57,749 bases of DNA from Sandaracinus sp. (lineage in GTDB: Bacteria > Myxococcota_A > Polyangia > Polyangiales > Houyiibacteriaceae): positions 1 to 57,749 of the forward strand of contig PABA01000067.1 in assembly GCA_002699025.1 (NCBI GenBank). The letters are read 5' to 3'. The first letter of the stretch is position 1; every line of letters begins with the position of its first letter. A program made the position numbers and the translations under genes. Of this stretch, positions 5,302 through 55,391 are shown in pieces. The notes below the pieces were generated by a model, which saw nothing but the letters and a program-made list of their open reading frames with translations, made no database searches and had not been told where the DNA came from.

Positions 5302-6468
5302 ATGAAGACGGGCGCGTGGGGGGAGCGAGCACCGCGGACCGGCGTCCTCGCCCTCGTGGCGCTCGCGCTGGCGTGCGGCGGAGACGACGACGCGGCCCGA
5401 CCGGACGGCGGCATCGACACGGGCGGAGAGGACGCTGGCGCAGAGGACGCCGGCGAACGGCGCGACGCCGGCACCGACGCGAGCTTCCCGGTGGGGCGAC
5501 CGGACGCGAGCGTCCCCGGGCCCTGTGAACGCTACGGCGCCGGCGTGCGGGTCTTCGACGTGGACGAGCGTCACCCGCCCGAGATCTCCGGCCTCGCCAT
5601 CAGCCGCGGGAACCCCGGCGTGCTCTGGGTGCACGACGACGGCGGCAACCCAGCCGTGCTCGTCGCCCTGAGCTTCGCCGGGGAGGTCGTGGCCCGGATC
5701 CACCTCGCCGCGCCGCTCGTCTACCCGCCCTTCCCGCTCGACGAGGCCGCCTTCCAGTTCAACAACGACTGGGAAGACCTCGCCCTCGGGCCCTGCGCCG
5801 AGGGGAGCGACACGGACTGCCTCTACGTCGCCGACTTCGGCGACAACGACGCCGGCAAGCAGGACAACCCCGGCTTCCACTACACGGTCTTCCGCGTGCC
5901 CGAGCCGGAGCTCGACCCGGTGCTCGAGCCGAGCGGCGAGGTGGACGAGCTCACGAGCGAGGACTGGGTCGGCTTCCCCTTCCGCTACGCGGACCGCGCC
6001 CACGACGCCGAGGGGCTCGCCGTCGATCCGAGCGGCCGCCCGATCGTCTTCACGAAGGAGCGCGAGGAGGACGCGACGCACGTCTTCCGCTTCGGGCCGC
6101 TCCCCGAGACGGCGCCGCGCACCTTCGCGCCCGTGGAGGAGCTCGAGCGCATGGCCTCGCTCACGCTCACCGACGAGTCCCTCGACCTGGCGACCGGGGC
6201 GGACCTGAACCGGAGCGCGGACCGGCTCGCGCTCCGCACCTACCGGCACGTCTACGAGTACCGCTTCGCGGCGTTCCCGGAGGGCCTCGAGGCCCTCTCG
6301 GACGCGGACCTCGTGCCCGGCGTCGTCCCCGACCTCGATTTCCCGCGCGAGTCCCCGCAAGGCGAAGCGGTCGCCTACGACCCCTTCACCGGCCACCTGC
6401 TGACCATCAGCGAGCACGTCCGCGGCATCGGCATCCCCTCGCTCCACGAGCTCCCCTGCGCGGAGTGA
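5302..6468 (+). CDS. Lipoprotein with beta-propeller-like domain
   Basis: 388 aa. A signal peptide runs to the ALALACGGDDD lipobox region, so it is predicted to be a lipoprotein. An Asp-Ala-Gly-rich linker (to about residue 65) follows. The mature domain has repeated blade-like phrases: EISGLAISRGNPGVLWVHDDGG, NNDWEDLALGPC, CLYVADFGDN, HDAEGLAVDPSGRPIVFTKE, and ATGADLNRSADRLALRTY. These resemble six-bladed propellers of the esterase-like-phytase/SdiA-regulated type. No catalytic residues can be assigned. The ATG at 5302 is chosen because the signal peptide begins there. It lies between two repeat-rich spacers and is likely monocistronic. Confidence 0.8.
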   Translation: MKTGAWGERAPRTGVLALVALALACGGDDDAARPDGGIDTGGEDAGAEDAGERRDAGTDASFPVGRPDASVPGPCERYGAGVRVFDVDERHPPEISGLAISRGNPGVLWVHDDGGNPAVLVALSFAGEVVARIHLAAPLVYPPFPLDEAAFQFNNDWEDLALGPCAEGSDTDCLYVADFGDNDAGKQDNPGFHYTVFRVPEPELDPVLEPSGEVDELTSEDWVGFPFRYADRAHDAEGLAVDPSGRPIVFTKEREEDATHVFRFGPLPETAPRTFAPVEELERMASLTLTDESLDLATGADLNRSADRLALRTYRHVYEYRFAAFPEGLEALSDADLVPGVVPDLDFPRESPQGEAVAYDPFTGHLLTISEHVRGIGIPSLHELPCAE

Positions 6469-6591
6469 GCGCCCGCGCAGGCGGGCCGCACGAGCAGGTG
6501 GCACGGGCGGCCGGCATGGGTGGCAGAGGCGGGCGGCGCGGCGGGCGGGCTTACGGCACGGGCGGGCGGCGCCGGCGGAGGGACGCCACGG

Positions 6592-6656
6592 GCGGACGAC
6601 TCCAGCGGACGACTCCGGCGGACGACTCCGGCGGACGACTCCGGCGGACGACTCCG
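6592..6656. repeat. 13-bp tandem repeat, 5 copies
   Basis: Five copies of GCGGACGACTCCG, starting at 6592, 6605, 6618, 6631 and 6644 (the first has an A in the last position). The unit contains the mini-inverted repeat TCCG-G-CGGA. It lies in the gene-free 6469-6870 spacer. Confidence 0.9.
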
Positions 6657-6674
6657 GGCGCCCGCTCTCGCCCG

Positions 6675-6811
6675 GCTCGACGTCGGCGAGTCGGGCGAGA
6701 GCGGGGAGCACGTGGCGGCTCGGGCGGACGGCACGGGCGGACGGCACGGGGAGCCGGCCCACGCGCTCGACGTCGGTGAGCACGGCGAGAGAGGGGAGCG
6801 CGTGGCGGCTC
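6675..6811. repeat. 47-bp direct repeat, 2 copies 90 bp apart
   Basis: Positions 6675-6721 and 6765-6811 are near-identical, both starting GCTCGACGTCGG and ending CGTGGCGGCTC. The segment between them contains two short copies of GGACGGCACGGG. The rest of the 6469-6870 spacer is low-complexity GC sequence without a gene. Confidence 0.8.
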
Positions 6812-6870
6812 CCGAGCGCGGCGCGGGGCCGGCGCGCCGCGGCTCGCGGGATCGACTCGCCGGATCTGCT

Positions 6871-7779
6871 ATGGCTCGCCCCATGATCACGCTGCGCCTC
6901 GGACTCGAGTGGTTCCTCAACCCGGATCACCTCCCTTTCCTCGTCGCCCAGGAGAAGGGCTGGCTGAAGGAGGCCGGCCTCGACCTCCACCTCGTGGAGC
7001 CGCAGGAGCACCTGGACGCCGCGGAGGCGATCCAGAAGGGCGAGCTGGACGTCGCGATCACCGAGCCGCTCCACCTCGTGGAGGACCGGGCGCAGGGCCG
7101 CGCGGTCCGGGGCTTCGCCCGCTTCCTGCACACGAACGGCGGCGTGATGTACTTCGCGGAGAGCGGCATCGAGCGCCCCCGCGACATGGCGGGCAAGCGC
7201 ATCCAGTATCCGGGCGCGCCGGGGCCGGGGGGGCCGGCGATCGTCGGGACGATGGTCGAGGCGGACGGCGGCCGGGCCCCCGTCGACGACTTCGTGCGGG
7301 TGAACGAAGGCTTCCACCACACGCAGGCGCTCGTGGACGGCAAGGCCGACGTGGCGACGCTCGCCTTCTACAACTTCGAGCTCGTCGAGGCGCGCCACCT
7401 CGGCCACGACGCGCGCTTCTTCGCGCTTCGCGATTGGGGCGTGCCCGACTTCTGCCAGCTCGTGCTCTTCACGACGCCGCGCGTGCTGAAGGACCGGCGC
7501 GGCGCGCTACAGGCCCTCGTGAAGCAGCTCCGCCGAGGCATCGACTTCGTCCACCAGCACCCGGAGGAGGCGCGGGCGCTCTACTTCCGCGCGAGCGGCG
7601 CGGACCCGGAGGACCCGCTCGGGGCGAAGATCTTCGCGGCGACCGCGCCCTGCTTCACCTTCGACTTCTCCATGAGCGACGACTACTTCCGCCGGCTCGC
7701 GAGCTGGATGGCCGAGCGCGGCCTGGTCGCCTCGGCGCCACCGCCCGAGACGCTCTGGACGAACGAGATCGCCTTCTGA
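6871..7779 (+). CDS. THI5/NMT1-like protein (ABC substrate-binding fold, cytoplasmic)
   Basis: 302 aa. It aligns along its whole length with the THI5/NMT1-ThiY family: LEWFLNPDHLPFLVAQEKGWLKEAGLDLHLVEP (12-44), a GELDVAIT strand (57-64), AGKRIQYPG, DGKADVAT, VPDFCQLVLF, IDFVHQHPEEA, then TFDFSMSDDY. There is no signal peptide or lipobox, unlike the ThiY transporter lipoproteins, and no permease gene is adjacent. Eukaryotic-type THI5 makes HMP-phosphate from PLP and its own histidine. By alignment from memory, His68 here falls at that histidine, but the PLP lysine position is Thr64 and the Cys-rich CCCFC motif is reduced to one Cys. It may be a binding protein or a variant enzyme. A second ATG at 6883 could also be the start. 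Confidence 0.75.
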   Translation: MARPMITLRLGLEWFLNPDHLPFLVAQEKGWLKEAGLDLHLVEPQEHLDAAEAIQKGELDVAITEPLHLVEDRAQGRAVRGFARFLHTNGGVMYFAESGIERPRDMAGKRIQYPGAPGPGGPAIVGTMVEADGGRAPVDDFVRVNEGFHHTQALVDGKADVATLAFYNFELVEARHLGHDARFFALRDWGVPDFCQLVLFTTPRVLKDRRGALQALVKQLRRGIDFVHQHPEEARALYFRASGADPEDPLGAKIFAATAPCFTFDFSMSDDYFRRLASWMAERGLVASAPPPETLWTNEIAF

Positions 7780-7810
7780 GCCCGCCCCGGCAGCGCGGCC
7801 GGGAGCGCGC

Positions 7811-8425
7811 TCAGGGCGCTTCGTCTTCCGCGTTCGAGCGCTTCGGATGACCCTCCGCGAGCGACTCCTGCTCGCGCTCCTGGGTCATCCCTTTCGCGCT
7901 CGAGAGGCGCGTCTCCGCGTGCGGGTCGTCCGTCCGCGCCACGCTCTCCGCATGCGCCTCGCTCGCCTTCGCCTCGCTCAGGGGGTGCGCGCTGCCCGGC
8001 CGACCGTCGGCGAGCCGATGGCCTCCCCCGGCATGCGCGGGGGGCGGCGCGGAGCCCTGCTCGACCGGGCGCACGAGGCCCCGCACGTCCGCCGGCAGGC
8101 CCGAGACGAGCGCGTGGGCGCCCCCATCGTCGAGGCTCGCCGCGAGCCAGCTCAGCACCGTGGAGACCCGCTCCACGGCCTGCGCCTCGTCGAGCCCTTC
8201 GAGCGCAGCGAGGAGCCTCGGCAGCCCCGCCGCGTCGTCGAACTTCTCCGCGCGGAGCGCCTCGAACCAGGCCGGCGGGAGCCGGCTCTGGAGGCGGTTC
8301 GCCGCGGGCCAGGGGATCAGCGGGGAGACCGCCGAGAGCACCTGCCGAACGGCCTCGTCCGCGTCGTCGACCGACGCGACACCGAGGTGATCCCGGAGGT
8401 GGCGCAACACATCACTCGTATCCAT
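7811..8425 (-). CDS. DUF2267 domain protein
   Basis: 204 aa. The N-terminal 100 residues fit DUF2267: three-helix repeats with DVLRHLRDHLG, AVRQVLSAVSPLIPWPAANRLQSRLPPAWFEAL, then a second repeat ending ALVSGLPADVRGL. The C-terminal 80 residues are low-complexity and charged (AHAESVARTDD, SSAKGMTQERE) and probably disordered. No enzymatic motif. Family function is unknown. It converges on the THI5-like gene, with only 31 bp between the stop codons. Confidence 0.8.
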   Translation of the reverse strand: MDTSDVLRHLRDHLGVASVDDADEAVRQVLSAVSPLIPWPAANRLQSRLPPAWFEALRAEKFDDAAGLPRLLAALEGLDEAQAVERVSTVLSWLAASLDDGGAHALVSGLPADVRGLVRPVEQGSAPPPAHAGGGHRLADGRPGSAHPLSEAKASEAHAESVARTDDPHAETRLSSAKGMTQEREQESLAEGHPKRSNAEDEAP

Positions 8426-8599
8426 GTACCGAATCCAACCTCTTCCTCGATAGCAGGCAGGCCCCCGCGCGAGAAGGGGCAGAACGCCGCCATGAGCCGA
8501 AAACGAACGGCGCCCGGAGTAGAAGAGGGCGCCCGGCGGGCGACCTTTCGGCACGGGCGAAGGGTTCACCCCGGAGCCTGCGTCGCGACGGCGACGGTG

Positions 8600-8605
8600 T
8601 AGGCT
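8600..8605 (+). promoter_or_regulatory. -10 box TAGGCT abutting a start codon (leaderless type)
   Basis: TAGGCT followed by GCCGCC and GTG at 8612, nearly identical to the site before the RegB-like gene (TAGGCT, GCCTCCC, GTG at 17928). Confidence 0.5.
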
Positions 8606-8611
8606 GCCGCC

Positions 8612-10845
8612 GTGGAGCTGCCCTTCCTGCTCGAGCACGGCGAGCGCGTCCACCTCGCGCTCGTGGCCCTCGCCGCCGCCCTCGGCGCGCTCGGAGCGCG
8701 GCGCCGCCGCCTCCGCGCGCGCCACGCCCAGGCGCGCACGCAGCGGGGCGCGCTGGGCGAGGCGCAGGGGGTGCGCGAGGAAGGCCCGGCGACGCTGCGG
8801 GGACGGCTCCGCGGTGGCGAAGGGGAGGCGGCCGCCCACGACGACCCCCACACGGCGACGCGCGCCGAGCGCCTCGCGCTCGAGACGGAGGCCGGGCGCG
8901 TCGCGATCGACGGGGCGGTCCGGGTGGAGGTCGGCAGCGCGGAGCGCGTCGGCCACGAGGGCACGGCGCCACGGCGCTCGCTCCGCTTCGGCGACGAGGT
9001 CCTCGCCGCCGGCCAGCTCGAGCGACGGACGCGCGAAGCGGAGGGCTACCGCAGCGACGCGAGCGAGTGGGCGCTCGTCCCCGGCGGCGCGGGGGTCGTG
9101 CACCTCGCGGCCCTCACGACGCGGCGCACCTTCGTGCCCCTCCGGTGGCTCGTCGCGGCGCCCTCCTCGGCGCCATCTTCGGGTTCGGCGCGATGGCCGC
9201 CATCGGCTGGTCGGCCGCGTCCGTGCGCGCCGACGAGGAGGCCACGGAGCCGCCACGCGCCTGGACGTTCGCCGCGGCCATGGGGCCCTGGGCGCGCGAG
9301 GAGGCCCTCCGCGAGATGGAGTACTGGCTGCTCCGGCACCTCGAGGGCGACGAGGAGAACGCCGACGCCTACGTCGCGCTCCAGGCGCTCCGCGGGCTGC
9401 CGGGACACTACGCGCTGGGCGGCCTGGTGGAGAACGGTTACCTGGCGCGCGCCGAGGACGTGCTCGCCCGTTCGCCGGACGCGGAGCGGCACGACGTGGA
9501 GCGTGTGGCGCGGGCCTACGGAGCCACCGGCGACTTCGTCTCCGGGTCGCGGGTGATGGCGGCGCATCCGGAACGCATGGCCGAGGGGAGCTTCGCGCAG
9601 CCGGAGGTGCTGATGCACCTGCTCGCTGGCAACCTGCCGGCGGCGCGCCGCGCCCAGGAGCGCGAGGTGGACGAGGACGATCGGGCCTGCCTGGCGGCCT
9701 ACCTTCGGGCGCGCCTCGGGATCGACGCAGAGGAGGCGCAGGCGGAGCTGATGTCGCGGGTGGAGCGCGACGACGCCTGCCGGCTCCTCCACGCGGACCT
9801 CGCCGAAGGGGAGGCGCGGCTGGCGCGGCTCGGTCCGCTCGCCGGATCCGAAGAGGCCGACTACCCGTTGGACAACATGGCCCTGCTCCTCCGCGCCGAG
9901 GCCTGCGCGCAGTCCCCCGAGCGCTGGCGTGCCGGCGAGGCGATCACGGCACACGGAACGGACGCAGCGGACGGAACGGACGCGGCGGACGAAGGCGGGG
10001 AAGCCGGACGCGCGGGGGCGGGGTCGGACGGGGCGAACGGCGCGAACGAAGCCGACGCCGCGACCGAAGCCAGCGAGCCCGGCGACGCGGGCGGGGAGGC
10101 CGACCCCTGCGCCATCGAGGGGCTCCCGCGGCGGGGCGCCAGCGCGCTCGTCGACCCGCGTCACGGCTGGGGCTACGACGGCGTGCCGGCGCTGGCCGCC
10201 CGCGTCGCCCGCGCGCTCGAGGCGCGCGACCACCCGCGCGCGTGGCGGCTCGCGAGCGACGCCCACCAGCAGGTCGCGCTCTTCCGAGGCCTGACCATGG
10301 ACCTCGAGGGCGCGAAGGCGTCCATCGACGCGGCCCGCCACGCCCTCCGCGCGAGCGACGCACCGAGCACCGATCGACGCGACGAGCTGCGCGCCATGGA
10401 GCTCGCCGTGCAGGCGCTCGAGGGGGAGGTCGGCGCGGCGCGGCGCGCCGCCGAGGCGGAGGGGCTCGGACGGATCGTCGGCGCGCTCCGCGTGCTCGAC
10501 CCGAGCGTGGATCGGGACACGCTGGCGGCGGCGGGGCTCCTGGACGCGGACGCGGACACGCTGCTCCGAGGCGGGGAGGTCGAGCTGCCCTCGCCCCGGG
10601 ACGGGCTCCTGGCGCTCGTGCGGAGCGAGTCGATTCCGTCCTCGCTCTGGCGCTGGTTCCGCGAAGACCCGCGGCACCACGCGATGATGGACCCGCACTA
10701 CAACGTGAGCGAGCTCGCCCGGGAGCGCCTGCTCTGGCACGCGGCGGGGCAGCCGACCGACGGGCTCGAGCGCATGCTCGAGGCCTACCGGGTCGCGCTC
10801 TTCGCGGAGGACACGGCCCTGGCCCTGCAGGTCGCGAGCCGCTGA
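8612..10845 (+). CDS. GIDE-like/alpha-solenoid membrane protein, apparently frameshifted near 9160
   Basis: I read this as one gene in two frames. From GTG 8612 the first frame encodes a membrane helix (about residues 14-27) and a domain like the GIDE family: RAERLALETEAGRVAIDG, RSLRFGDEVLAAGQLERR, GYRSDASEWALVP. It loses protein character after RRTFVPLRWLVAA near 9160. At that point the -1 frame opens with ALLGAIFGFGAMAAIGW, the continuation of a membrane helix, and runs to 10845. The C-terminal part is helical with TPR-like repeats and a low-complexity Ala/Gly/Asp insert (about 9945-10105). The shift sits in GTCGCGGCGCCC, a likely place for a missing base. It could be a sequencing error, a true mutation, or less likely programmed frameshifting. 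Function unknown. Confidence 0.6.
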
Positions 10846-12406: not shown

Positions 12407-14545
12407 TCAGCCGACCGGCGCGAGCTCCACCCGGTGCGCGAGCATGATGGCCTGGCCGCTCACCGGCTCCATCACGCCGCCGGGGATCACGCGGTTCACG
12501 TTGCCGCCGCCGAGCGTCGCCGCGAAGGCGAGCCCGCTCCCCTCGTGGCCCCAGCCGTGGGGCACGGCGACGACGCCCCGCGCGACCTCGTCGCTCAGCC
12601 GCGCGGGCAGCCGGATGGCCCCCGCCTCGCTCGAGAGCTCGACGAGCGCGCCCTCCTCGATGCCCCGCGCGGCCGCGTCCTCCGGATGCACGATCGCCGC
12701 CGGCGCCGGCTCGGGGCGGAGCCGCGGCAGGTTGTGCATCCAGCTGTTGTGGGACTTCCGCTGGCGGCGCCCGATCAGCGCGAGCTTCCCGTCGCCGGCC
12801 TCCCCCTCGAGCCGGCGCGCGTGCGCCTCGAGGCGCGGGAGGTCGGCGAGGATGCGCGGCGCGTCGAGGTGCACGCGCCCGTCCTCGGTGAAGACCCGCT
12901 GGCCGAGGAAGGTCCCGGGCGCGTTCGGCTCGAGCAGCACGCCCTCGGGCTTCGCCTTCAGCTCGCCGAGCGTCGTCTGGCCGCCCCAGCGGAGCGCCAG
13001 CGCGAGGAGGTGGTCGGGCGTGAGCTCGAGCCCGAGCCGGCCGAGGAGCGCGTTCAGGCCCGGCACGAGCTGGCAGAGGGAGGCGCCGAGGGGCTTGGCT
13101 CCGCAGGCCCGGGCGAGGTCGCCGAAGATGCGCCACTCCTCCCGGCGCTCGTGCTTCGGCGGCAGCACCGCCGGCGTGTACTGGGCGTGCGGCGTCGGCT
13201 GCAGGACGGTCCAGCTCACGGGGAAGTCCGAGCGCTCGAGCATGTCCGTGGCCGGCAGGAGGTAGTCGGCGAAGCGCGCGGTCTCGTTCGGGTAGAGGTC
13301 GATGGAGACGAGCAGGTCGAGCTCGCCGAGGGCCGCCTCCATGGCCGCGCCGGGCGTCGAGTGGAGCGGGTTGCCGCAGCTCACGAAGAGGGCGCGGACG
13401 CGCTCCGGGTGGTCGACGGTGATCTCCTCGGGGAGCGCGGCGATGGGGAAGGCGCCGGCGACGCGGTGCCAGCCGCCCGCGAGCGTGCGGTGCTCGTCGG
13501 CCGTGCCGAGGCCGAGGACCTTCGCCATCGTGAAGGCGTCGAAGGCACCGCGCGGGACGAGCAGGCCGCCGGGCGCGTCGAGGTGGCCGGTGACGAGGTG
13601 GAGGCCCTGGAGGAGCCAGTAGGCGAGTGAGCCGAAGGGGCCCATGTTCACGCCCGTCGACATGTAGAGGCAGGCGCCCTTCGCGCGGAGGAAGGCCAGC
13701 GCGAGGGCGCGGCTCTGCTCGGCGGGGATGCCCGTGAGCGGCGCGCAGCGCTCGGGGGTCCAGGGGCGCGCGGCCTCGACGAGGGCGTCCGTGCCGCGGG
13801 CGACCGGCGCGAGGGCGGCGGCGTCCACGGCGCGCTCCTCGTGGGCGATCACGTGGAGCATGGCGAGGAGGAGGTAGACGTCCGTGCCGGGGCGGATCGG
13901 GAGGTGCTCGCCGACCTTGGCGGCGGTCTCCGTGCGGCGCGGGTCGACGATGACGACGCGGCCGCCGCGCGCCTCGATGGCCTGGAGGCGGCCGAGGGCG
14001 TTCGGCGCGTGGACCATGGACATCTGGCTGATCGCCGGGTTCGAGCCGAGGCAGACGAAGAGCTCGGTGCGCTCGAGGTCGGGCACCGGGTGGACGATGG
14101 AGAGGCCGTAGAGCTGCGTGGCGACGTCGAACTTCGGGTTGGCGTCGATGGAGTGGGAGGCGAAGTGGTTGGGGGAGCCGAGGGCCTCGAGGAAGGCGGC
14201 GGAGAAGAGGACGTTCTGGAAGCTGAAGAAGGTCGGGTTGCCGGCGTAGTGGGCGACGCAGCGGTCGCCGTGGGCGGCGCGGAGGGCGCGGACGCGGGCG
14301 CCGATCTCGCGGAGGGCCTGGGACCAGGAGATGCGCACGAAGGTGTCGCCGACGCGCTTCATCGGGTGGTTCAGGCGGTCCGGATCCTCGTGGAGGGCGC
14401 CGAGGGAGAGGCCCTTCACGCAAGCGTAGCCGCGGCTCACGGGGTGGTCGCGGTCGGCGCGGAGCTGGACGAGGCGCTCGCCCTCGGTGGTGGCGACGAG
14501 GCCGCAGTGGGCCTCGCAGATGCGGCAGAAGGTCCGGGTCTTCAC
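12407..14545 (-). CDS. Molybdopterin oxidoreductase, catalytic subunit
   Basis: 712 aa enzyme of the DMSO reductase superfamily (formate dehydrogenase/BisC-like). The N-terminus has the [4Fe-4S] motif Cys7-x2-Cys10-x3-Cys14-x27-Cys42 and the RGYACVKG loop. Next come ISWSQALREIG, GNPTFFSFQN, SHSIDANPKF in the region that supplies the Mo ligand, LFVCLGSNPAISQ, and VVIVDPRRTETA for cofactor binding. SCGNPLHSTPGA and a C-terminal molybdopterin-dinucleotide domain (NSWMHNLPRL, VPHGWGHEGSG, VNRVIPGGVMEPVSG) complete the fold. There is no Tat signal, so it is cytoplasmic. No electron-transfer subunit, FdhD or MobA gene is adjacent. The Mo ligand cannot be assigned with certainty; Ser is my best reading. 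GTG start with TACCCT 6 nt upstream. Confidence 0.88.
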   Translation of the reverse strand: MKTRTFCRICEAHCGLVATTEGERLVQLRADRDHPVSRGYACVKGLSLGALHEDPDRLNHPMKRVGDTFVRISWSQALREIGARVRALRAAHGDRCVAHYAGNPTFFSFQNVLFSAAFLEALGSPNHFASHSIDANPKFDVATQLYGLSIVHPVPDLERTELFVCLGSNPAISQMSMVHAPNALGRLQAIEARGGRVVIVDPRRTETAAKVGEHLPIRPGTDVYLLLAMLHVIAHEERAVDAAALAPVARGTDALVEAARPWTPERCAPLTGIPAEQSRALALAFLRAKGACLYMSTGVNMGPFGSLAYWLLQGLHLVTGHLDAPGGLLVPRGAFDAFTMAKVLGLGTADEHRTLAGGWHRVAGAFPIAALPEEITVDHPERVRALFVSCGNPLHSTPGAAMEAALGELDLLVSIDLYPNETARFADYLLPATDMLERSDFPVSWTVLQPTPHAQYTPAVLPPKHERREEWRIFGDLARACGAKPLGASLCQLVPGLNALLGRLGLELTPDHLLALALRWGGQTTLGELKAKPEGVLLEPNAPGTFLGQRVFTEDGRVHLDAPRILADLPRLEAHARRLEGEAGDGKLALIGRRQRKSHNSWMHNLPRLRPEPAPAAIVHPEDAAARGIEEGALVELSSEAGAIRLPARLSDEVARGVVAVPHGWGHEGSGLAFAATLGGGNVNRVIPGGVMEPVSGQAIMLAHRVELAPVG

Positions 14546-15365: not shown

Positions 15366-16190
15366 TCAGGGGGTGCCGCGGCCGGCCCGGAACACGCTCT
15401 GCGCGCCCGCCCCGGCGCCGCCGAAGCCGAGGCCGAGGTTCTCGAACATCGGGCCGCAGTCCACGTCGCTCGGGGCGGACATGCAGCCGGGGGGCGTCTC
15501 CTCGACGTTGGCGAGGGTCGAGCCCTCCACGAGCGCGGCGAGGTCGAAGACGATGGCTTCGCGCGCCGGGTCGAGGGCGAGGTCGACGTCGACGACGTTC
15601 GGCGTCGCGCAGCTCGCGTTGCCCATCATGTCGCCCTCGCAGGCGGTGGAGCCGAGGTGGAGGCGCCAGCCCTCGAAGGCCGAGCTCTCGCCGTCGATGC
15701 GGATGAACTTGTAGCCGCCGAGCCAGTTCCAGAACATCGAGGTGAGGTTCAGCGGCGCGCCGGCGGTGGCGGCGTCGGCGTGGTTCATCTCCGCGGGGAC
15801 GCCCACCCGGAAGCGCACGCCCACGTACTCGCCGGCCGGCGCGGTGCCGGTGACGGTGGCGTTGAGGTCCGGGTTGCCCATGTCGCCGCAGCCGTCCTCG
15901 AAGTCGAGGAGCGCGACCGTGCCGTCCTGCCAGCGGCCGTCGTCGTCCATGGCGAGGGCGACCTCGTCGCCGTCGGCGGTCACGAGGCGGACGTCGTGGA
16001 CGTAGAAGCGGAGGTCCACGGGGGTGAGGTCGAGGCCCCCTTCGCCGAGGCCCGAGTAGGTCTGGCCGCACTCGAAGCCGGCGTCGCCGACGACGGCGGC
16101 GAAGGAGAGGGAGACGGGCTCCTCGTCGTCGCCGCCGCAGGCGAGCGCGAAGGGGAGCGCGAGGGCGAGGGGAAGGGCGTGACGCAGCAT
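15366..16190 (-). CDS. MbnP-like protein (metallo-mystery pair, AZL_007920/MXAN_0976 family)
   Basis: 274 aa with a lipoprotein-type signal peptide (LALPFALACGGDDEE). The mature part matches the four-Cys 'metallo-mystery pair' family, whose member MbnP binds copper: FECGQTYSGLG, VDLRFYVHDVRLV, RWQDGTVALLDFEDGCGD, GEYVGVRFRVGVPAEMNH, NLTSMFWNWLGGYKFIRIDGE, GWRLHLGSTACEGD, CATPNVVDVDL. In this family the partner is normally an adjacent di-haem MauG-like enzyme (MbnH/MXAN_0977). None is present in this window, so this copy is an orphan. The ATG at 16190 has TAGCTT 7 nt upstream. It is divergent from the CGTC-type outer-membrane gene at 16315, suggesting joint regulation. Confidence 0.85.
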   Translation of the reverse strand: MLRHALPLALALPFALACGGDDEEPVSLSFAAVVGDAGFECGQTYSGLGEGGLDLTPVDLRFYVHDVRLVTADGDEVALAMDDDGRWQDGTVALLDFEDGCGDMGNPDLNATVTGTAPAGEYVGVRFRVGVPAEMNHADAATAGAPLNLTSMFWNWLGGYKFIRIDGESSAFEGWRLHLGSTACEGDMMGNASCATPNVVDVDLALDPAREAIVFDLAALVEGSTLANVEETPPGCMSAPSDVDCGPMFENLGLGFGGAGAGAQSVFRAGRGTP

Positions 16191-16197
16191 GGGTCCC

Positions 16198-16203
16198 AAG
16201 CTA
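16198..16203 (-). promoter_or_regulatory. -10 box TAGCTT abutting a start codon (leaderless type)
   Basis: TAGCTT on the minus strand, 7 nt (GGGACCC) before ATG 16190. Confidence 0.45.
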
Positions 16204-16314
16204 GCGGGTTCGGCGGCGGGGCGGCACGCGGCAAAAGGTCGCAGCCCCGCGTGAGGGGCGACGCGACGATTTGCCGCATCGAGCGCGCGGCCGATCGCGC
16301 GAAGACTCCCCATC

Positions 16315-17217
16315 GTGCGCACCTCGCTCCGCGCGGGCCTCGCCCTCCTCGTGCTCGTCGCCGCCGCCCTCCCGGCCCGGCGGGCGCGCGCATGCGGCAC
16401 CTGCTCGGTCGGCGATCCGACGCTCACGGCCTTCGGCGCCGGCCTGCCCGCGCGCCATCGGGTGCGCGCCGTGGCCGCGCTCCGCACGCGCCGGGAGACC
16501 GTCACCGAGGGCGCCGCGCGCCTCGAGCTCCGCGAGCGCCGCCTCGAGCTCGGGCTCGCCTGGGCGCCGAGCGATCGCTGGGTGCTCTCGGCCCTGGTGC
16601 CGGTCGTCCACCAGCGCGTCACCTGGCCGAACCTCGCGGAGGAGCGCCGCTGGGGCCTCGGCGACGCGGCGCTCCAGGCGCGGGGCGTGCTCTGGCGCGA
16701 CCGCGGCTTCGCTCCGGCGCACGTGCTCTCGGGGCTGGTCGGCCTCGAGCTGCCCACGGCGTCCGACCTCGCCCGCGCGGAGCAGCTCGCGAGCGACGAC
16801 GCCCAGCCCGGCTCGCGGAGCTGGGACCCGACGGCCGGGCTCGCCTACGCCTTCTTCGGCGGCGCCTTCTCGCTCCAGTCGGCGGCGACGCTCCTCGTCC
16901 CCCTGAGCGAGGGCTTCGGCGGGCGGCGCCCGGGGCCGACGCTGCGCCTGCTCGCCCTCGGCCAGTGGCAGCCCCACGAGGTCATCGGCTTCCGCCTCGG
17001 CGCCACGGCGCGGGTCGACGGCCGCGACCGGGTGGACGGCGCCCGCGACGCGCAGAGCGGCGGCGCGCTCGTGAAGGGCACGGCCGGCCTGCTCCTCGCG
17101 CCCCACCCGCGCCTGCTCCTCGAGGCCCGCGCGAGCCTGCCCGTCTGGCAGGAGCGGCGCGGCGGCCACGAAGACGGCTTCGCCATGTTCCTCGGAGGCA
17201 TCCTTGAGCTCCACTGA
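16315..17217 (+). CDS. Predicted outer-membrane beta-barrel with N-terminal CGTC motif
   Basis: 300 aa. A signal peptide (about 1-25, ending LPARRARA) is followed directly by CGTCSVGDPTLTAFG, a CxxC at the mature N-terminus. The rest has alternating hydrophobic/polar strands typical of a barrel: RVRAVAALRTRRETV, RRLELGLAWAPSDRWVLSALVPVVHQRV, LGDAALQARGVLW, LSGLVGLELPT, DPTAGLAYAFFGGAFSLQSAATLLVPL, RLLALGQWQPHEVIGFRLGATARV, LLEARASLPVW. No enzymatic motif. It is divergent from the MbnP-like gene and overlaps the next gene by 14 bp, so a role with copper or cytochrome proteins is suggested only by context. Confidence 0.75.
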   Translation: MRTSLRAGLALLVLVAAALPARRARACGTCSVGDPTLTAFGAGLPARHRVRAVAALRTRRETVTEGAARLELRERRLELGLAWAPSDRWVLSALVPVVHQRVTWPNLAEERRWGLGDAALQARGVLWRDRGFAPAHVLSGLVGLELPTASDLARAEQLASDDAQPGSRSWDPTAGLAYAFFGGAFSLQSAATLLVPLSEGFGGRRPGPTLRLLALGQWQPHEVIGFRLGATARVDGRDRVDGARDAQSGGALVKGTAGLLLAPHPRLLLEARASLPVWQERRGGHEDGFAMFLGGILELH

Positions 17218-17914
17218 ACGACCCGCGCTGCGTCGGCGGCCCCGCGCACGCCGCCCTCGTCCGCTGCCCGCGGGGCGCGCCGCGGCGATCCTCTTGGCGC
17301 TCCTCGCGCTTCACTGCGTCGGCTACGACCCGGGGCTCGAGCTCGAGCTCGCCCTCCGCGCCGAGCCCGTGCCTCAGGCGATGGAGACGCCCGAAGGCGG
17401 CTGGCTCCGGCTCGCCGCCGCCGAGGTGCGCTTCGACGGCGCCGAGCTCGTCGCCTGCGCGGACGAGGGCGAGGCCCCCCTGGCGGCGCTCCTCGCGGAG
17501 CTCGGGCCCGAGCGCGCCCGCGCCCACGGCCTCGAGGCGAGCGGCGAGGCCATGGTGCTCGCCGTGGACGCGCTCCACGGCACCGGCGCGCCCGTCGCCG
17601 CCGGGACGCTCCGCCCCCTCCCCGGGCGCTACTGCGCGCTCCGCGTCCACCTCGCCGAGGGGCTCCACCTGGCGGGGGAGCGCGAGGCGCCGGGGGATCG
17701 GGCGGCGCCCTTCGACGTCGCGAGCCCGGAGCCGCTCGACGTCGAGCTCCCCTTCGACGCGCCGCTCGCCCTCGACCGGCCCGAGGCGCTCCTCCGCACG
17801 ATCGTGCTCGACCCGCGCTGCTGGGCCGCGGCGCTCCCCGCCGAGGCGCGCCCCGAGGACGCCGCCGAGGTCGTCGCCGCCTGCCTCCGCGTCGATTCCC
17901 CGCCGGCGCCGTAA
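17204..17914 (+). CDS. Hypothetical lipoprotein coupled to the CGTC barrel gene
   Basis: 236 aa from a TTG start with GGAGG at 17194-17198, overlapping the previous gene by 14 bp, so translation is probably coupled. A basic N-terminus (RRRPRARRPRP) leads to a hydrophobic stretch and LLALHC lipobox. The mature part has strands WLRLAAAEVRFDGAELVAC and LPGRYCALRVHLAEGLH, which faintly recall the strand order of the MbnP family (DLRFYVHDVRLV and GEYVGVRFRVG in the neighbour). Homology is not certain. The gene ends 13 bp before the RegB-like start. Function unknown. Confidence 0.7.
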   Translation: MSSTERPALRRRPRARRPRPLPAGRAAAILLALLALHCVGYDPGLELELALRAEPVPQAMETPEGGWLRLAAAEVRFDGAELVACADEGEAPLAALLAELGPERARAHGLEASGEAMVLAVDALHGTGAPVAAGTLRPLPGRYCALRVHLAEGLHLAGEREAPGDRAAPFDVASPEPLDVELPFDAPLALDRPEALLRTIVLDPRCWAAALPAEARPEDAAEVVAACLRVDSPPAP

Positions 17915-17920
17915 TAGGCT
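17915..17920 (+). promoter_or_regulatory. -10 box TAGGCT abutting a start codon (leaderless type)
   Basis: TAGGCT, then GCCTCCC, then GTG 17928. The box lies immediately after the stop of the upstream gene (17914), so the histidine kinase gene can have its own promoter. Confidence 0.5.
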
Positions 17921-17927
17921 GCCTCCC

Positions 17928-19187
17928 GTGTCCGCCCTCGCCGTCGCACCGCGCTGGCTCGTCCGCCTCCGCTGGGTGGCCGTCGGCGCCGAGGCTCTGG
18001 CGATCGGCGTCGCCGCCTTCGCGCTCGGCCTCGAGCTCCCGCTCGGCACGCTCTTCGCGCTGGTCGGCCTCCACGCCCTGAGCAACCTGGTGCTGGCGGC
18101 GCGGCGCGACCGGCTCGACGAGGCCGGCTGGGGCGGCGCGCTCCTCTTCGACGTCTGGCTCCTCACGGCGCTCCTGGCCCAGAGCGGCGGGCCGACCAAC
18201 CCCTTCAGCGTCCTCTACTTCGTGCAGGTGGTGCTCGCCGCCGTGCTCCTCGGCTACGGCTGGACCTTCGCGCTCTGGCTCAACGCCGTCAGCGGCTACG
18301 GCACGCTCTTCTTCTTCCATCACCCGGTGCCGGGGCTCGGCCACGACGCACACGGGCATGGAGGCTTCCAGCTCCACCTCTACGGCATGGCGATCGCGTT
18401 CGCCGTGGCGGCGGGCTTTCTGGCCTTCTTCGTGGCGCGCCTCTCGGCGGCGTTCCGGGAGCGGGAGGCGGCCCTGACGGCGAGCCGCGCGCGGGCGGAG
18501 AAGGCGCAGCGCGTGGCCAGCCTGACGACGCTCGCCGCGGGCGCGGCCCACGAGCTGGCGACGCCCCTCGGGACGATCGCGGTGGTCGCCGGGGAGCTCG
18601 CGCGGGAGCTCGAGGGGGCGGGGGAGGCGCAGGCCGAGCTCGCCGAGGACGCGCGGGTGATCCGGAGCGAGGTGGATCGCTGCCGCCGCATCCTGGACTC
18701 GATGAGCGCCGACGCCGGGGACGTGCTCGGCGAGAGCCCGGAGACCGTCCCCTTCGCGGAGCTCGCCGAGGAGGTGCGCGCCGATCTCGCCGAGGCGCGC
18801 CGGGGGCGGCTGCGGGTCGGCGGGGCGGGCGTGATGCGGGTGCCGCGGCGGGCGGCGCGGCAAGCGATCGAGAGCTTGGTGCAGAACGCCTTCGACGCGG
18901 CGCCCGAGGGCGAGGTGGAGCTGCGGCTCGAGGGGGCCGAGGTGGTGGTGCGCGATCGGGGGGCGGGCATGGACGCGGAGACGCTCGAGCGGGTCGGCGA
19001 GCCCTTCTTCACGACGAAGGCGCCGGGGCGGGGGATGGGCCTCGGGCTCTTCTTGGCGCGGGCGACGGCGGAGGCGCTCGGGGGCGGGCTCGAGCTGAGC
19101 TCGGCGCCGGGAGAGGGCACGACGGCGCGCTGGCGCGTGGACCCGGCGCGGGTGGAGGATGCGGGGGCAGACGAGGAGCGAGCATGA
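17928..19187 (+). CDS. RegB/PrrB-like redox sensor histidine kinase
   Basis: 419 aa inner-membrane sensor kinase. Membrane helices span about residues 12-170. The quinone-site heptad of RegB, GGPTNPF, is intact at 87-93. The H-box AAGAAHELATPLGTI has His208, and Cys252 in EVDRCRRIL matches the redox-active cysteine of RegB. ATPase motifs follow: N-box LVQNAFDAAP, G1 RDRGAGMD, F-box PFFTTK, G2 GRGMGLGLFLA. A His-rich loop (HHPVPGLGHDAHGHGGFQLH, 131-150) is unusual and could bind metal. RegB senses respiratory redox state through quinone and Cys. It overlaps the response-regulator gene by 4 bp. The position next to MbnP- and CGTC-type genes suggests redox or copper-linked control. Confidence 0.9.
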   Translation: MSALAVAPRWLVRLRWVAVGAEALAIGVAAFALGLELPLGTLFALVGLHALSNLVLAARRDRLDEAGWGGALLFDVWLLTALLAQSGGPTNPFSVLYFVQVVLAAVLLGYGWTFALWLNAVSGYGTLFFFHHPVPGLGHDAHGHGGFQLHLYGMAIAFAVAAGFLAFFVARLSAAFREREAALTASRARAEKAQRVASLTTLAAGAAHELATPLGTIAVVAGELARELEGAGEAQAELAEDARVIRSEVDRCRRILDSMSADAGDVLGESPETVPFAELAEEVRADLAEARRGRLRVGGAGVMRVPRRAARQAIESLVQNAFDAAPEGEVELRLEGAEVVVRDRGAGMDAETLERVGEPFFTTKAPGRGMGLGLFLARATAEALGGGLELSSAPGEGTTARWRVDPARVEDAGADEERA

Positions 19188-19759
19188 GCGAGGGCGAGCA
19201 CGACGCGCAGACGCTGCTGATCATCGACGACGACGACGTGTTCCGGACGCACGTGTCGCGGGCCTTCGAGCGGCGGGGCTACGAGGTGTGGAAGGCGGCG
19301 GACGTCGGCGAGGGGCTCGAGCTGGCGCGGGAGCATGCGCCCGAGCGGGTGCTGCTCGACCTGCGCATGCCGGGCGGCTCCGGGCTGGACCTCTTGCAGG
19401 CGCTGCTCGAGGTGGACCCGGCGACGAACGTGGTGATGCTGACGGGCTACGGGAGCATCGCGACGGCGCTCGAGGCGGTGCGGCGGGGGGCGACGCACTA
19501 CCTGACGAAGCCGGCCGACGTGGACGAGATCCTGGCGGCCTTCGCGCGGAAGGACCTGCCGCCGGACGCGGAGCTGCCGCCGCCGCCCGCGGAGGACGAT
19601 GCGGAGGCGACGACGCCCTCGCTGGCGCGGGTGGAGTGGGAGCACATCCAGCGGGTGCTGACGGACTGCGGCGGCAACATCACGCAGGCGGCCAAGCGCC
19701 TCGGCATCCACCGGCGATCGCTGCAGCGGAAGCTGCAGAAGTACCCCGTCCCGCGTTGA
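19184..19759 (+). CDS. RegA/PrrA/ActR-like response regulator
   Basis: 191 aa. The receiver domain has the acidic pocket DDDD (15-18), phosphoacceptor Asp59 in VLLDLRMPGGSG, Thr in MLTGYGS and Lys in YLTKPAD. A Pro/Glu linker leads to a C-terminal Fis-type helix-turn-helix, GNITQAAKRLGIHRRSLQRKLQKYP, the RegA family signature. The ATG overlaps the kinase stop (ATGA). Partner of the kinase at 17928 and likely a DNA-binding regulator of redox or respiratory genes. A stem-loop follows at once. Confidence 0.92.
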   Translation: MSEGEHDAQTLLIIDDDDVFRTHVSRAFERRGYEVWKAADVGEGLELAREHAPERVLLDLRMPGGSGLDLLQALLEVDPATNVVMLTGYGSIATALEAVRRGATHYLTKPADVDEILAAFARKDLPPDAELPPPPAEDDAEATTPSLARVEWEHIQRVLTDCGGNITQAAKRLGIHRRSLQRKLQKYPVPR

Positions 19760-19794: not shown

Positions 19795-20098
19795 CGGGGG
19801 GTGTCGGGGTTTCGCCGCCGCAGGCGACGAGCCCGCCTTCGGCGGGCGGGGGTCGGGGGACTGGGGCGAGGTGGACGGGTGGGAAGCGGGGTCGCTCTTC
19901 GAGCCCCGCGGGCGGCGGCGCGGGGGTCGGGGGATCGGGGGATCGGGGTTTCGTCGCCGCAGGCGACGAGCCCGCCTTCGGCGGGCGGGGGTCCGGGAAC
20001 TGGGGCGAGGTGGATGGCTGGGAAGCGGGGTCGCTCTCGTAGCCCTCGCGGGCGGCGGGCGGGGGTCGGGGGTTCGTCGCCGCAGGCGGTGAGACGCT
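19795..20098. repeat. Hairpin-rich direct repeats upstream of the GT-C gene
   Basis: About 300 bp with two full copies and one part copy of a unit of about 139 bp. Each begins GGGTTTCG(T/C)CGCCGCAGGCGACGAG (containing the palindrome GTCGCC-GCA-GGCGAC) and continues with CCCGCCTTCGGCGGGCGGGG (stem CCCGCC/GGCGGG) and GGGAACTGGGGCGAGG. The same family occurs at 21583-22030 on the other side of the gene at 20137. No gene is present. Confidence 0.8.
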
Positions 20099-20136: not shown

Positions 20137-21582
20137 GTGCCTGCCGCTCGTCCGACTCGCGCCGCCTTCCCCTGGGGGCGCCTCGCCCTCTACGGCGCCG
20201 TGCACGGCGCGCTGGGCGCGCTCTTCCTCCTCGCGGGCCCGTACGCGGCGACGGCCTTCCCGCTCGACGACGCCTACATCCACCACGTCTACGCGGAGGG
20301 CGTCGCCTTCGGGGAGGGCTTCGCCTACAACCCGGGCGCGCCGGCGAACGGCGCGACCAGCCCGCTCTGGGTGCTCCTCCTCGCGCCGCTCCGCCTCCTC
20401 GGCCTCCGCGGCGCCGCGCTCGTCCTGCCGACCAAGCTCCTCGGGCTCGCCCTGGGCGCGCTCCTCGCGCTCGTCGCCGACCACCTCGCCGCCGCCCTCG
20501 GCGCCTCCCCGAAGGCGCGCTTCGCCGCCGGGCTCCTCGTCGCGGCGAACCCGCTCGTCGTCTACGGCGCCGTCTCGGGCATGGAGCTGCCGCTCGCGAG
20601 CCTGCTCCTCCTCGCGGCGCTCCTCGCCCTCGCGCGCCGGCGCCTCCTCGCCGCCGGCCTCGCGCTCGGCGCCGGCATCCTCGCGCGCCCGGAGCTCACG
20701 CTCGCCTGGCTCTTCGTCGCGGGGCTCGAGGGGCGGCGCCGGCGCGCGCCCCCGCCGACCGCGCTCTGGCTGCCGGGGGCCCTCGTCTGGGCCGTCTGGA
20801 TGGGGCGCTCGCTCCACGTCGCCGACGCCTGGTTGCCGACGACCTTCGCCGCGAAGCACGACGCCGCCGGGCTGGCGCAGTGGGTGGACGTGCCCTGGGC
20901 CGCGCTGATCGCGCTCGGGGGACCGCTCGCGATCGTCACCCTGCCGCTCGGGGTGCTGGCGATCCGGCGCTGGTGGCGGCGGCCCTCGACGGCGCGGATG
21001 GCGGCGCTCGCGCTCCTCGTCTTCCTCCCCCTCGGGGTGGCCTGGGCGCACGACATCGCGGAGCCGACGCGCTTCTTCTGGTGGCGCTACGGCGCGCCGG
21101 TGCTGCCCCTCGCGCTGGTGATCGCGGCCTGCGGGCTCGACGCGCTCCCGGCCCCGCGCCGGGGGCTGGCGGCCGGGGCGGCGCTGCTGCTGGGGCTCGC
21201 CTTCGCCTGGCCGGCGGCGCGGGACCAGGCCGAGCACGCGCGGAACATCACCGAGCTCAACGTGGCGGCGGCGCGCTGGCTCGAGGAGCGGGTGGGCGAG
21301 CGGGACTGGCTGGCGAGCAACGACGCCGGGGCCGTGCGCCTCCTGACCGAGCGGCCGGTGGTCGACCTCATCGGGCTCAACGATCACCGCATGCGGACGC
21401 CGGCGCGGGCCGAGGTGCTCGAGGCGGCCGACCCGCGCTACTACGTGGTCTTCGAGAGCTGGTTCCCGAACATGGTCGCGAGCCCGCGCTTCCGCGTGGT
21501 GCGGCGCTTCCGCTCGGAGCCCTACGTGGTGTGCCGCGAGTGCGCGCAGTCGGAGCTGCTCATCCTCGAGCGCGTGCGATAG
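20137..21582 (+). CDS. GT-C fold integral membrane glycosyltransferase-like protein
   Basis: 481 aa with about 10 hydrophobic helices. The first periplasmic loop has the Asp-Asp motif typical of GT-C enzymes (FPLDDAYIHHVYAEG, Asp44-Asp45) followed by GEGFAYNPGAPANGATSPLWVLLLAP, a phrase common in GT39/GT87-like and AftB-like proteins. NPLVVYGAVSGMELPLAS and ILARPELTLAW add to the match. A soluble C-terminal domain (about 370-481) includes WLASNDAGAVRLLTERPVVDLIGLND. These enzymes use polyprenyl-phosphate sugars at the outer face of the inner membrane. Donor and acceptor cannot be predicted, and no other glycan genes are nearby. GTG start at 20137. Confidence 0.75.
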   Translation: MPAARPTRAAFPWGRLALYGAVHGALGALFLLAGPYAATAFPLDDAYIHHVYAEGVAFGEGFAYNPGAPANGATSPLWVLLLAPLRLLGLRGAALVLPTKLLGLALGALLALVADHLAAALGASPKARFAAGLLVAANPLVVYGAVSGMELPLASLLLLAALLALARRRLLAAGLALGAGILARPELTLAWLFVAGLEGRRRRAPPPTALWLPGALVWAVWMGRSLHVADAWLPTTFAAKHDAAGLAQWVDVPWAALIALGGPLAIVTLPLGVLAIRRWWRRPSTARMAALALLVFLPLGVAWAHDIAEPTRFFWWRYGAPVLPLALVIAACGLDALPAPRRGLAAGAALLLGLAFAWPAARDQAEHARNITELNVAAARWLEERVGERDWLASNDAGAVRLLTERPVVDLIGLNDHRMRTPARAEVLEAADPRYYVVFESWFPNMVASPRFRVVRRFRSEPYVVCRECAQSELLILERVR

Positions 21583-22030
21583 GCGGCCTTTGGCCGCGGG
21601 GGGCGGGGTTTCGTCGCCCACGGCGACGAGTGGCCTTCGGCCGCGGGGTCCGGGAACTGGGCCGAGGAGAGCGGGTGGGGGGCAGGGTCGCTCGTGAGGC
21701 GGCCTCTGGCCGCGGGGGGCGGGGTTTCGTCGCCGCAGGCGACGAGCGGCCTTCGGCCGCGGGGGTCCGGGAACTGGGCCGAGGAGAGCGGGTGGGTGGC
21801 GGGGTCGCTCGTGAGGCGGCCTTTGGCCGCGGGGGTCGGGGTTTCGTCGCCGCGGGCGACGAGCGGCCTTCGGCCGCGGGGGTCGGGGAACTGGGCCGAG
21901 GAGAGCGGGTGCGTGGCAGGGTCGCTCGTGAGGCGGCCTTTGGCCGCGGGGATCGGGGTTTCGTCGGCGGGCGGGCGCGCGGGGAACTGGGCCGAGGCGA
22001 GCGGGGGGACGGGGCCGCTCGTCGTGGGCA
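21583..22030. repeat. 116-117 bp direct repeats downstream of the GT-C gene
   Basis: Four copies, the last truncated, with TTTCGTCG at 21609, 21725, 21842 and 21959. Each full unit carries GTCGCCGCAGGCGACGAG, CGGCCTTCGGCCGCGGGG and GGGAACTGGGCCGAGGAGAG, and ends GGGTCGCTCGTGAGGCGGCC, giving two stem-loops per unit. The family is the same as at 19795-20098. From 22031 to 22241 I see nothing beyond ordinary GC-rich spacer before rimO. Confidence 0.88.
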
Positions 22031-55018: not shown

Positions 55019-55302
55019 AGGAATCCTGCGGACACCGGGGAGTCCTGCGGACACCGGCGGGGACCTGCGGGGAGTCCTGCGGACGCCAGGGAGTCCTGCG
55101 GACGCCAGGGAGCCCTGCGGACGCCAGGGAGCCCTGCGGACGCCAGGGAGCCCTGCGGATGCCCGGGAGTCCTGCGGACGCCGGGGAGCCCTGCGGACGC
55201 CGGGGAGTCCTGCGGACGCCGGGGAGTCCTGCGGACGCCCAGGAGTCCTGCGGACGTCGGGAAGTCCTGCGGACACCGGCAGGGAGTCCTGCGGACGCTG
55301 GG
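55019..55302. repeat. 19-bp tandem repeat array, about 14 copies
   Basis: Consensus GGGAGTCCTGCGGACGCCA. The GAG of the unit falls at 55091, 55110, 55129, 55148, 55167, 55186, 55205, 55224 and 55243, then AAG at 55262: strictly 19 bp apart. Degenerate copies lie on both ends, with a 22-bp step to 55284. Each unit holds the hairpin GTCC-TGC-GGAC or its GCCC variant. The period is not a multiple of three, so coding is unlikely. It lies in the 719-bp spacer after phzF. Confidence 0.92.
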
Positions 55303-55391
55303 GCTTGCGGCGCCGGGCGGGGGGGAGGCGAAATCGTCGTGATCTCGCGTGGCTGGACGCCCGCGAGGGGCCAGCTGGACGAGTGCTCCCG

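Follow-up and report, generated by a model that had tools for sequence, protein, structure and literature searches.

An mbnP gene of Sandaracinus sp. facing a CxxC barrel, a lipoprotein and a RegB/RegA-like pair: probably most of a conserved copper-handling module

MbnH oxidises a tryptophan in the WxW motif of its partner MbnP, which then binds Cu(I). According to passages of PMC3621798, the pair is conserved well outside the methanobactin producers analysed there and has an unclear role, and passages of PMC9426467 report MbnPH-like genes in other copper operons. In a stretch of 57,749 nucleotides from Sandaracinus sp. (assembly GCA_002699025.1, contig PABA01000067.1; hereafter the window), an mbnP-like gene at 15366-16190 on the minus strand faces a run of four other genes, and no mbnH is encoded in these 57.7 kb. 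The region is read here, with moderate confidence, as most of a conserved outer-membrane and periplasmic copper-handling module under a redox switch of the RegB/RegA type, the sixth gene of which, mbnH, is located on another contig. Gene neighbourhoods in relatives show that MbnP, MbnH, an outer-membrane barrel with a CxxC motif, a lipoprotein with invariant Cys/His/Cys residues and a RegB/RegA-like pair recur together.

MbnP, MbnH and the genes linked to them

Five predicted open reading frames at 15366-19759 (contig C78 of the genome, which comprises 9.24 Mb in 238 contigs) were confirmed. Facing mbnP across 124 bp between the divergent start codons (16191-16314, neither strand), presumably a shared control region, is a plus-strand run encoding an outer-membrane beta-barrel (16315-17217), a lipoprotein (17204-17914), a RegB/PrrB/ActS-like redox sensor kinase (17928-19187) and a RegA/PrrA/ActR-like response regulator (19184-19759). 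The four genes overlap or almost touch. A sigma-70-type promoter and a terminator were searched for at 16100-16400 and neither was matched.

The mbnP gene, with the ATG of MLRHALPL as start codon, encodes 274 amino acids with a lipoprotein-type signal. The protein scored 257.9 bits with TIGR04052 (cut-off 140) and 148.4 bits with PF20243 (cut-off 27), is the sole PF20243 match of the genome and had 7l6g as its best solved match by sequence (E 1.4e-35). All 39 positions conserved at 90 % or more among 47 aligned MbnP sequences, its own included, are kept, among them W154, W156, H137, H178 and the cysteines 41, 184, 194, 236 and 245. It is a true member of the MbnP family, as an earlier note on this DNA had proposed.

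The MbnH profile TIGR04039 had six matches in the genome (E up to 0.001), none of them on contig C78. Five were below the cut-off of 362.85 bits, and one, on contig C143, scored 504.6 bits and contains two CxxCH motifs in its translation. Because MbnH is encoded there, MbnP is not an orphan at the genome level; the earlier note's description of it as an orphan holds for the window, and a search for mbnH elsewhere in the genome found it. As in known MbnP/MbnH pairs, both proteins are above the curated cut-offs and the WxW, His and Cys positions are kept. The locus differs from them in that mbnH is unlinked and that mbnP has as neighbours the RegB/RegA-like pair, the CxxC barrel and another lipoprotein, of probable MbnP fold.

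The partners were traced in 144 genomes of the same order, the window genome being included in all counts, and two genes were called linked when at most 8 kb apart. The sensor was searched for at E 1e-50 and the regulator at E 1e-40, the lipoprotein was counted by direct search, and 18 weaker MbnH-like places, all below 262 bits, were excluded before linkage was counted. MbnP was found in 77 genomes, MbnH in 74, the barrel in 48, the lipoprotein in 29, the sensor in 86 and the regulator in 95. MbnP and MbnH were linked in 66 of the 73 genomes with both, in agreement with the earlier statement that this family normally sits beside a di-haem MauG-like oxidase; the window genome is among the other seven. 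Barrel and lipoprotein were linked in all 28 genomes with both, lipoprotein and MbnP in 19 of 27, barrel and MbnP in 22 of 41 (five genera in three families, genus g2 alone supplying 16) and sensor and barrel in 27 of 44 (12 genera, five families). Sensor and MbnP were linked in 28 of 59 genomes, from 14 genera and four families, whereas about 0.2 would be expected from position at an assumed genome size of 7 Mb, and sensor and MbnH in 18 of 57. Some of the unlinked cases are on short contigs. That the layout is more than chance is seen from these links in many relatives, where a RegB/RegA-type pair is repeatedly encoded near MbnP/MbnH. The earlier note had held that the proposed module would be undermined if relatives had mbnH directly linked and an unrelated pair in place of the barrel and lipoprotein genes, or if the genes did not co-occur; mbnH is indeed linked in most relatives, but barrel and lipoprotein of the same kind are linked to mbnP as well (in 22 of 41 and 19 of 27 genomes), and the module survives.

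All six genes form a single cluster in seven genomes, six of genus g2 and G119. Sensor, regulator, barrel, lipoprotein, MbnP and MbnH follow one another on one strand in L092 and L093, and the order in L088, L096 and L097 is MbnP, MbnH, lipoprotein, barrel, sensor, regulator. The layout of G024 resembles that of the window, with MbnP divergent from the barrel and then sensor and regulator, and its MbnH is 3.4 kb from MbnP. Outside the order, a wider scan of genome contigs with 12 barrel sequences as queries gave 19 loci, of which 18 were from metagenome-assembled genomes titled Myxococcota, Myxococcales, Polyangiaceae, Deltaproteobacteria or uncultured bacterium. The remaining one, from a metagenome-assembled genome of Thiomargarita sp. 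(Gammaproteobacteria; L207), has MbnP (5915-6814), MbnH (6808-8004), barrel (7989-8858) and lipoprotein (8857-9603) in an uninterrupted row on one strand. Unless this contig is misbinned, the row indicates that the four-gene cassette reaches beyond one lineage and is independent of a sensor of the window type.

On contig C143 the neighbours of mbnH are murB, about 7 kb away, a gene whose product combines amino-acid-kinase and decarboxylase domains, and, about 3 kb from mbnH (L008, 4444-6057), the gene of a protein carrying the PF11617 'Cu-binding_MopE' motif. In relatives with the whole run murB adjoins mbnH, seven members of the murB cluster, which covers eight genomes, being at most 500 bp from MbnH, as is murB in L211. 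The murB gene near mbnH on C143 may therefore be a trace of an operon that was split in the lineage of the window genome. In two genomes of the same family, G041 and G081, MbnH and MbnP are likewise on different contigs; no murB match was found in the stretches fetched from them, which does not help this reading.

The run is surrounded by dnaK, grpE, hrcA and murB in genus g2 and some other genomes, and by housekeeping genes in family f5. Recurrent extra neighbours were considered as members of the module and none was added (30 clusters, with a representative annotated for 16). One cluster, with a single annotated member (a TonB-dependent receptor, L135), is within about 4 kb of module genes in eight genomes (L125, L126, L130, L135, L153, L155, L156 and L159), and in G042 a weak match to the lipoprotein family adjoins a member of it.

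The CxxC barrel and the second lipoprotein

The barrel scored 24.3 bits with PF13557, slightly above the cut-off of 22, and its AlphaFold2 model has 13 strand elements and a mean predicted local distance difference test score (pLDDT) of 85.1. Its best aligned solved chain was 4rl8, a COG4313 channel (Z 25.9, root-mean-square deviation 2.6, 249 residues aligned), with the amyloid-secretion transporter FapF close to it (Z 25.5); the copper transporter PcoB (Z 13.8) stood alongside many other barrels of similar Z. As with the lipoprotein below, these fold comparisons speak for the matches listed and leave room for families outside the lists. The motif CGTC is at residues 27-30, directly after ALPARRARA, which agrees with the earlier placement of a CxxC at the mature N-terminus, and A26, C27, C30, G33, D34, P35 and T36 are invariant in 25 of 25 barrels. 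The stretch with the motif (residues 20-40) is modelled at low confidence, as expected of a flexible tail. From its model, the protein is a channel of the COG4313 type with a Cys-x-x-Cys at the predicted mature N-terminus. It shares its fold with the COG4313/Phenol_MetA_deg channels, and to a lesser degree with PcoB, and differs from the former in the Cys-x-x-Cys-x-x-GDPT tail that is invariant in the 25 aligned sequences.

The lipoprotein, numbered here from the TTG at 17204, gave no hit in Pfam or NCBIfam even with E allowed to reach 1, and thus none to PF20243 or TIGR04052. Its family comprises 37 members obtained by profile search of the fetched loci, and 38 with the Thiomargarita protein; those in the aligned set are 20-39 % identical to the protein of the window. 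None of the 38 deviates at Cys38, the lipid anchor, or at Cys85, His108 and Cys144. A Foldseek search with its AlphaFold2 model (pLDDT 83.1) among 350,542 chains placed MbnP of Methylosinus trichosporium (7l6g) at ranks 1-5 and 7, the matches being weak (best E 5.9e-3, none of 109 reaching 0.001, TM-scores 0.27-0.29). MbnP was also first in VIA-align (Z 7.1, root-mean-square deviation 4.7, 165 residues aligned), ahead of ranks 2-20 with Z 6.6-5.0 over 94-125 residues; a Z below 8 may reflect a common arrangement, and rows less than 1 Z apart, here 7.1 and 6.6 (the latter over 107 residues), count as tied. The profiles of the lipoprotein and MbnP families aligned in order over 119 columns with a score of 38.0, to which a shared lipoprotein signal may contribute, compared with at most 21.1 in 60 column shuffles, 15.4 for the reversed profile and 13.3-22.3 against the barrel, sensor, regulator and MbnH profiles as controls. 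The hhalign probability was 55.8 %, and lower (9.7 % and 26.9 %) when fewer sequences were aligned. Taking fold, profile and adjacency together, the lipoprotein is quite probably a distant relative of MbnP, and the idea of a second, diverged MbnP-like protein is thereby strengthened, well by the profile comparison and at most moderately by the fold. No W-x-W motif is present in its translation, and it should therefore not bind copper in the manner of MbnP.

The RegB/RegA-like pair and the rest of the window

The sensor scored 237.6 bits with NF033792 (cut-off 350) and the regulator 168.3 bits with NF033791 (cut-off 250). The features that the earlier note had listed for the sensor are present, namely GGPTNPF at 87-93, Cys252 and six histidines in a 26-residue stretch from residue 128; a His box is found at 208. 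In an alignment of 86 sensors from 85 genomes, into which the sequence of G138 did not enter, GGxxNP is kept in 84 and the Cys252 column holds Cys in 80. The GGxxNPF motif and the redox Cys presumably correspond to the RegB sites. The regulator has Cys162 just before its helix-turn-helix, a position at which 66 of 81 aligned sequences have Cys. With RegB/RegA (PrrBA, ActSR) the pair thus shares GGxxNPF, the His box, a later Cys and a Fis-type helix-turn-helix regulator with a Cys before the helix-turn-helix.

A copper link of such systems is described in passages of PMC9147068, according to which RegA of Rhodobacter capsulatus binds copper, Cu2+/O2 drives formation of its Cys156 disulfide, and regA and/or regB of group 1 are cotranscribed with senC, which encodes a copper protein; Cys162 was equated with Cys156 by context, not by alignment. 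The window pair resembles these group 1 systems in its copper-protein neighbour and differs in scoring below the equivalog cut-offs and in having MbnP as that neighbour in place of SenC (no search for SenC was made).

The His-rich loop of the sensor had been proposed as a mark of a metal module. The mean number of loop histidines was 4.3 in sensors linked to MbnP, MbnH or barrel (n = 40), 4.5 in unlinked sensors of carrier genomes (n = 24) and 4.4 in non-carriers (n = 22). With about as many histidines away from MbnP as beside it, the loop gives no indication of copper and was discarded as such a mark.

At E 1e-50 the sensor was found at 87 places in 86 genomes, usually one per genome. Of 86 sensor loci, 46 had a barrel of the wider family at most 4 kb from the sensor, a count that holds partly by construction because the wider profile included weak barrel relatives; the 19 barrel hits in loci without a sensor were all in loci recruited by the barrel search. 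Among the 22 sensor genomes without MbnP, MbnH and a barrel of the 16315 type, a related barrel adjoins the sensor in 11, with a QACC start in nine and no Cys motif in the frame searched in two. As a barrel is thus found beside the sensor in half of the genomes lacking the other genes, the role of the sensor is not tied to MbnP, and from these neighbourhoods the tie between sensor and barrel looks wider than that between sensor and MbnP.

A RegB/RegA-like pair with a QACC barrel at most 4 kb away was noted at 11 loci (L118, L125, L128, L130, L133, L137, L139, L138, L144, L147 and L149), nine of them from genomes without MbnP, MbnH and a 16315-type barrel. In G083 and G099 (L089, L111, L095 and L143) the best sensor match is far from the run and a regulator-like sequence is beside the barrel; the sensor is possibly broken or duplicated there.

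Elsewhere in the window, the gene at 20137-21579 is flanked by tandem arrays at 19804-20076 and 21581-21966 (a 139-bp unit twice and a 117-bp unit 3.3 times) with a common palindromic core. The 21-base core occurs at 20 places in the genome at up to two mismatches, six of them exact and four of the 20 in the window, and the control gave none. A 19-bp unit is repeated about 15 times at 55020-55303. A stand-alone molybdopterin oxidoreductase with an Fe4S4 domain is encoded at 12410-14545 on the minus strand; the nearest models are those of formate dehydrogenases, and it scores far under their cut-offs.

Proposed copper handling and the alternatives

Copper as the cargo of the barrel and of the second lipoprotein, control of the divergent genes by the regulator and the direction of transport are what we infer for this module. 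The RegB-like kinase would read the quinone or thiol redox state and phosphorylate the RegA-like regulator, which in turn would act on the shared 124-bp control region. MbnH would oxidise the WxW tryptophan of MbnP and so allow it to bind Cu(I), the barrel would provide passage through the outer membrane, with copper captured or gated by its CxxC tail on the periplasmic side, and the second lipoprotein may hold or hand over copper through Cys85, His108 and Cys144. CorA/CorB and MopE/SACCP of methanotrophs likewise combine a copper protein having a kynurenine site with a di-haem peroxidase-like partner and are copper-repressed, and the Cu(I) site of CorA contains kynurenine, according to passages of PMC3912023, in which a barrel or sensor partner is not described. 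Since CorA/CorB and MopE are copper-repressed and corA-corB is made at low copper in that account, acquisition of copper would, by analogy, be likelier than its export. The fuller picture, an acquisition system in which a CxxC-gated COG4313-type channel passes copper to the Cys/His/Cys MbnP-fold lipoprotein and on to kynurenine-matured MbnP, with expression set by the RegB/RegA-type switch, is offered tentatively, as the less probable, more specific form of the copper-handling reading. In the literature covered, which was a part of it, no description of the barrel, of the second lipoprotein or of a link between RegB/RegA and MbnP was met.

Several observations weigh against the copper-handling module as proposed. 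The copper link of these genes is proposed here from sequence and gene neighbourhood. Only 22 of 41 genomes have barrel and MbnP linked, mostly from one genus (16 of 22), 36 of the 77 MbnP genomes gave no barrel hit, and sensor and MbnH are linked in only 18 of 57. Taken alone, the match of the lipoprotein to the MbnP fold is weak, sensor and regulator are both under the RegB/RegA equivalog cut-offs, the His count of the loop does not follow the module, and a related barrel adjoins the sensor in 11 of 22 genomes devoid of the MbnP, MbnH and barrel genes. The Thiomargarita stretch, moreover, holds no match above 100 bits to the window sensor or regulator. In an alternative that we regard as rather unlikely, the RegB/RegA-like pair is a general redox regulator placed beside its outer-membrane targets, barrel and lipoprotein form a channel for a small molecule other than copper, and MbnP just happens to lie nearby. 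In its favour, the sensor occurs as a rule once per genome, it is present in 22 genomes without the other genes, and the barrel resembles a COG4313 channel and FapF equally. The Thiomargarita row speaks against it, however, since there barrel and lipoprotein accompany MbnP and MbnH with no such sensor found beside them, and so independently of it; in addition, the lipoprotein resembles MbnP itself.

The cysteines allow still another reading, a thiol or redox-stress module in which the CxxC tail, Cys85 and Cys144, and Cys252 and Cys162 form a chain of disulfide sensing or repair and the metal is incidental. This is improbable: although the Cys pairs are invariant in 25 of 25 barrels and 38 of 38 lipoproteins and 80 of 86 sensors keep Cys252, the lipoprotein has in His108 a residue no less invariant than its two cysteines, MbnP/MbnH is a copper pair, and no thioredoxin-fold protein was found among the 16 annotated of the 30 recurrent neighbour clusters. 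A true orphan, that is, an MbnP acting without an oxidase and binding metal with an unmodified or chemically oxidised tryptophan, would suit the lack of mbnH in the window and the report, in a passage of PMC3912023, that Methylomicrobium alcaliphilum grew well after the di-haem partner had been knocked out, which was read there as a sign of partner-free copper binding. It is nevertheless very improbable in view of the 504.6-bit MbnH elsewhere in the genome, the same separation of MbnH from MbnP in G041 and G081 and the retention of all 39 conserved MbnP residues. That unrelated genes came together by chance has next to no likelihood; gene order is variable and in 19 of the 41 genomes carrying both, barrel and MbnP are unlinked by the 8-kb criterion, some on short contigs, but 28 sensor-MbnP links stand against about 0.2 expected and the lipoprotein was linked to the barrel in 28 of 28.

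If the acquisition system is as proposed, the link of SenC and RegBA to copper in alphaproteobacteria would extend to another phylum, and the MbnP fold would belong to a wider copper-relay family, more than a single pair, with the second lipoprotein as a new branch of the fold built around a separate, invariant candidate metal site. Through the recurrent partners, the channel, the second probable MbnP-fold protein and the redox switch, what MbnP/MbnH does outside the methanotrophs becomes addressable gene by gene.

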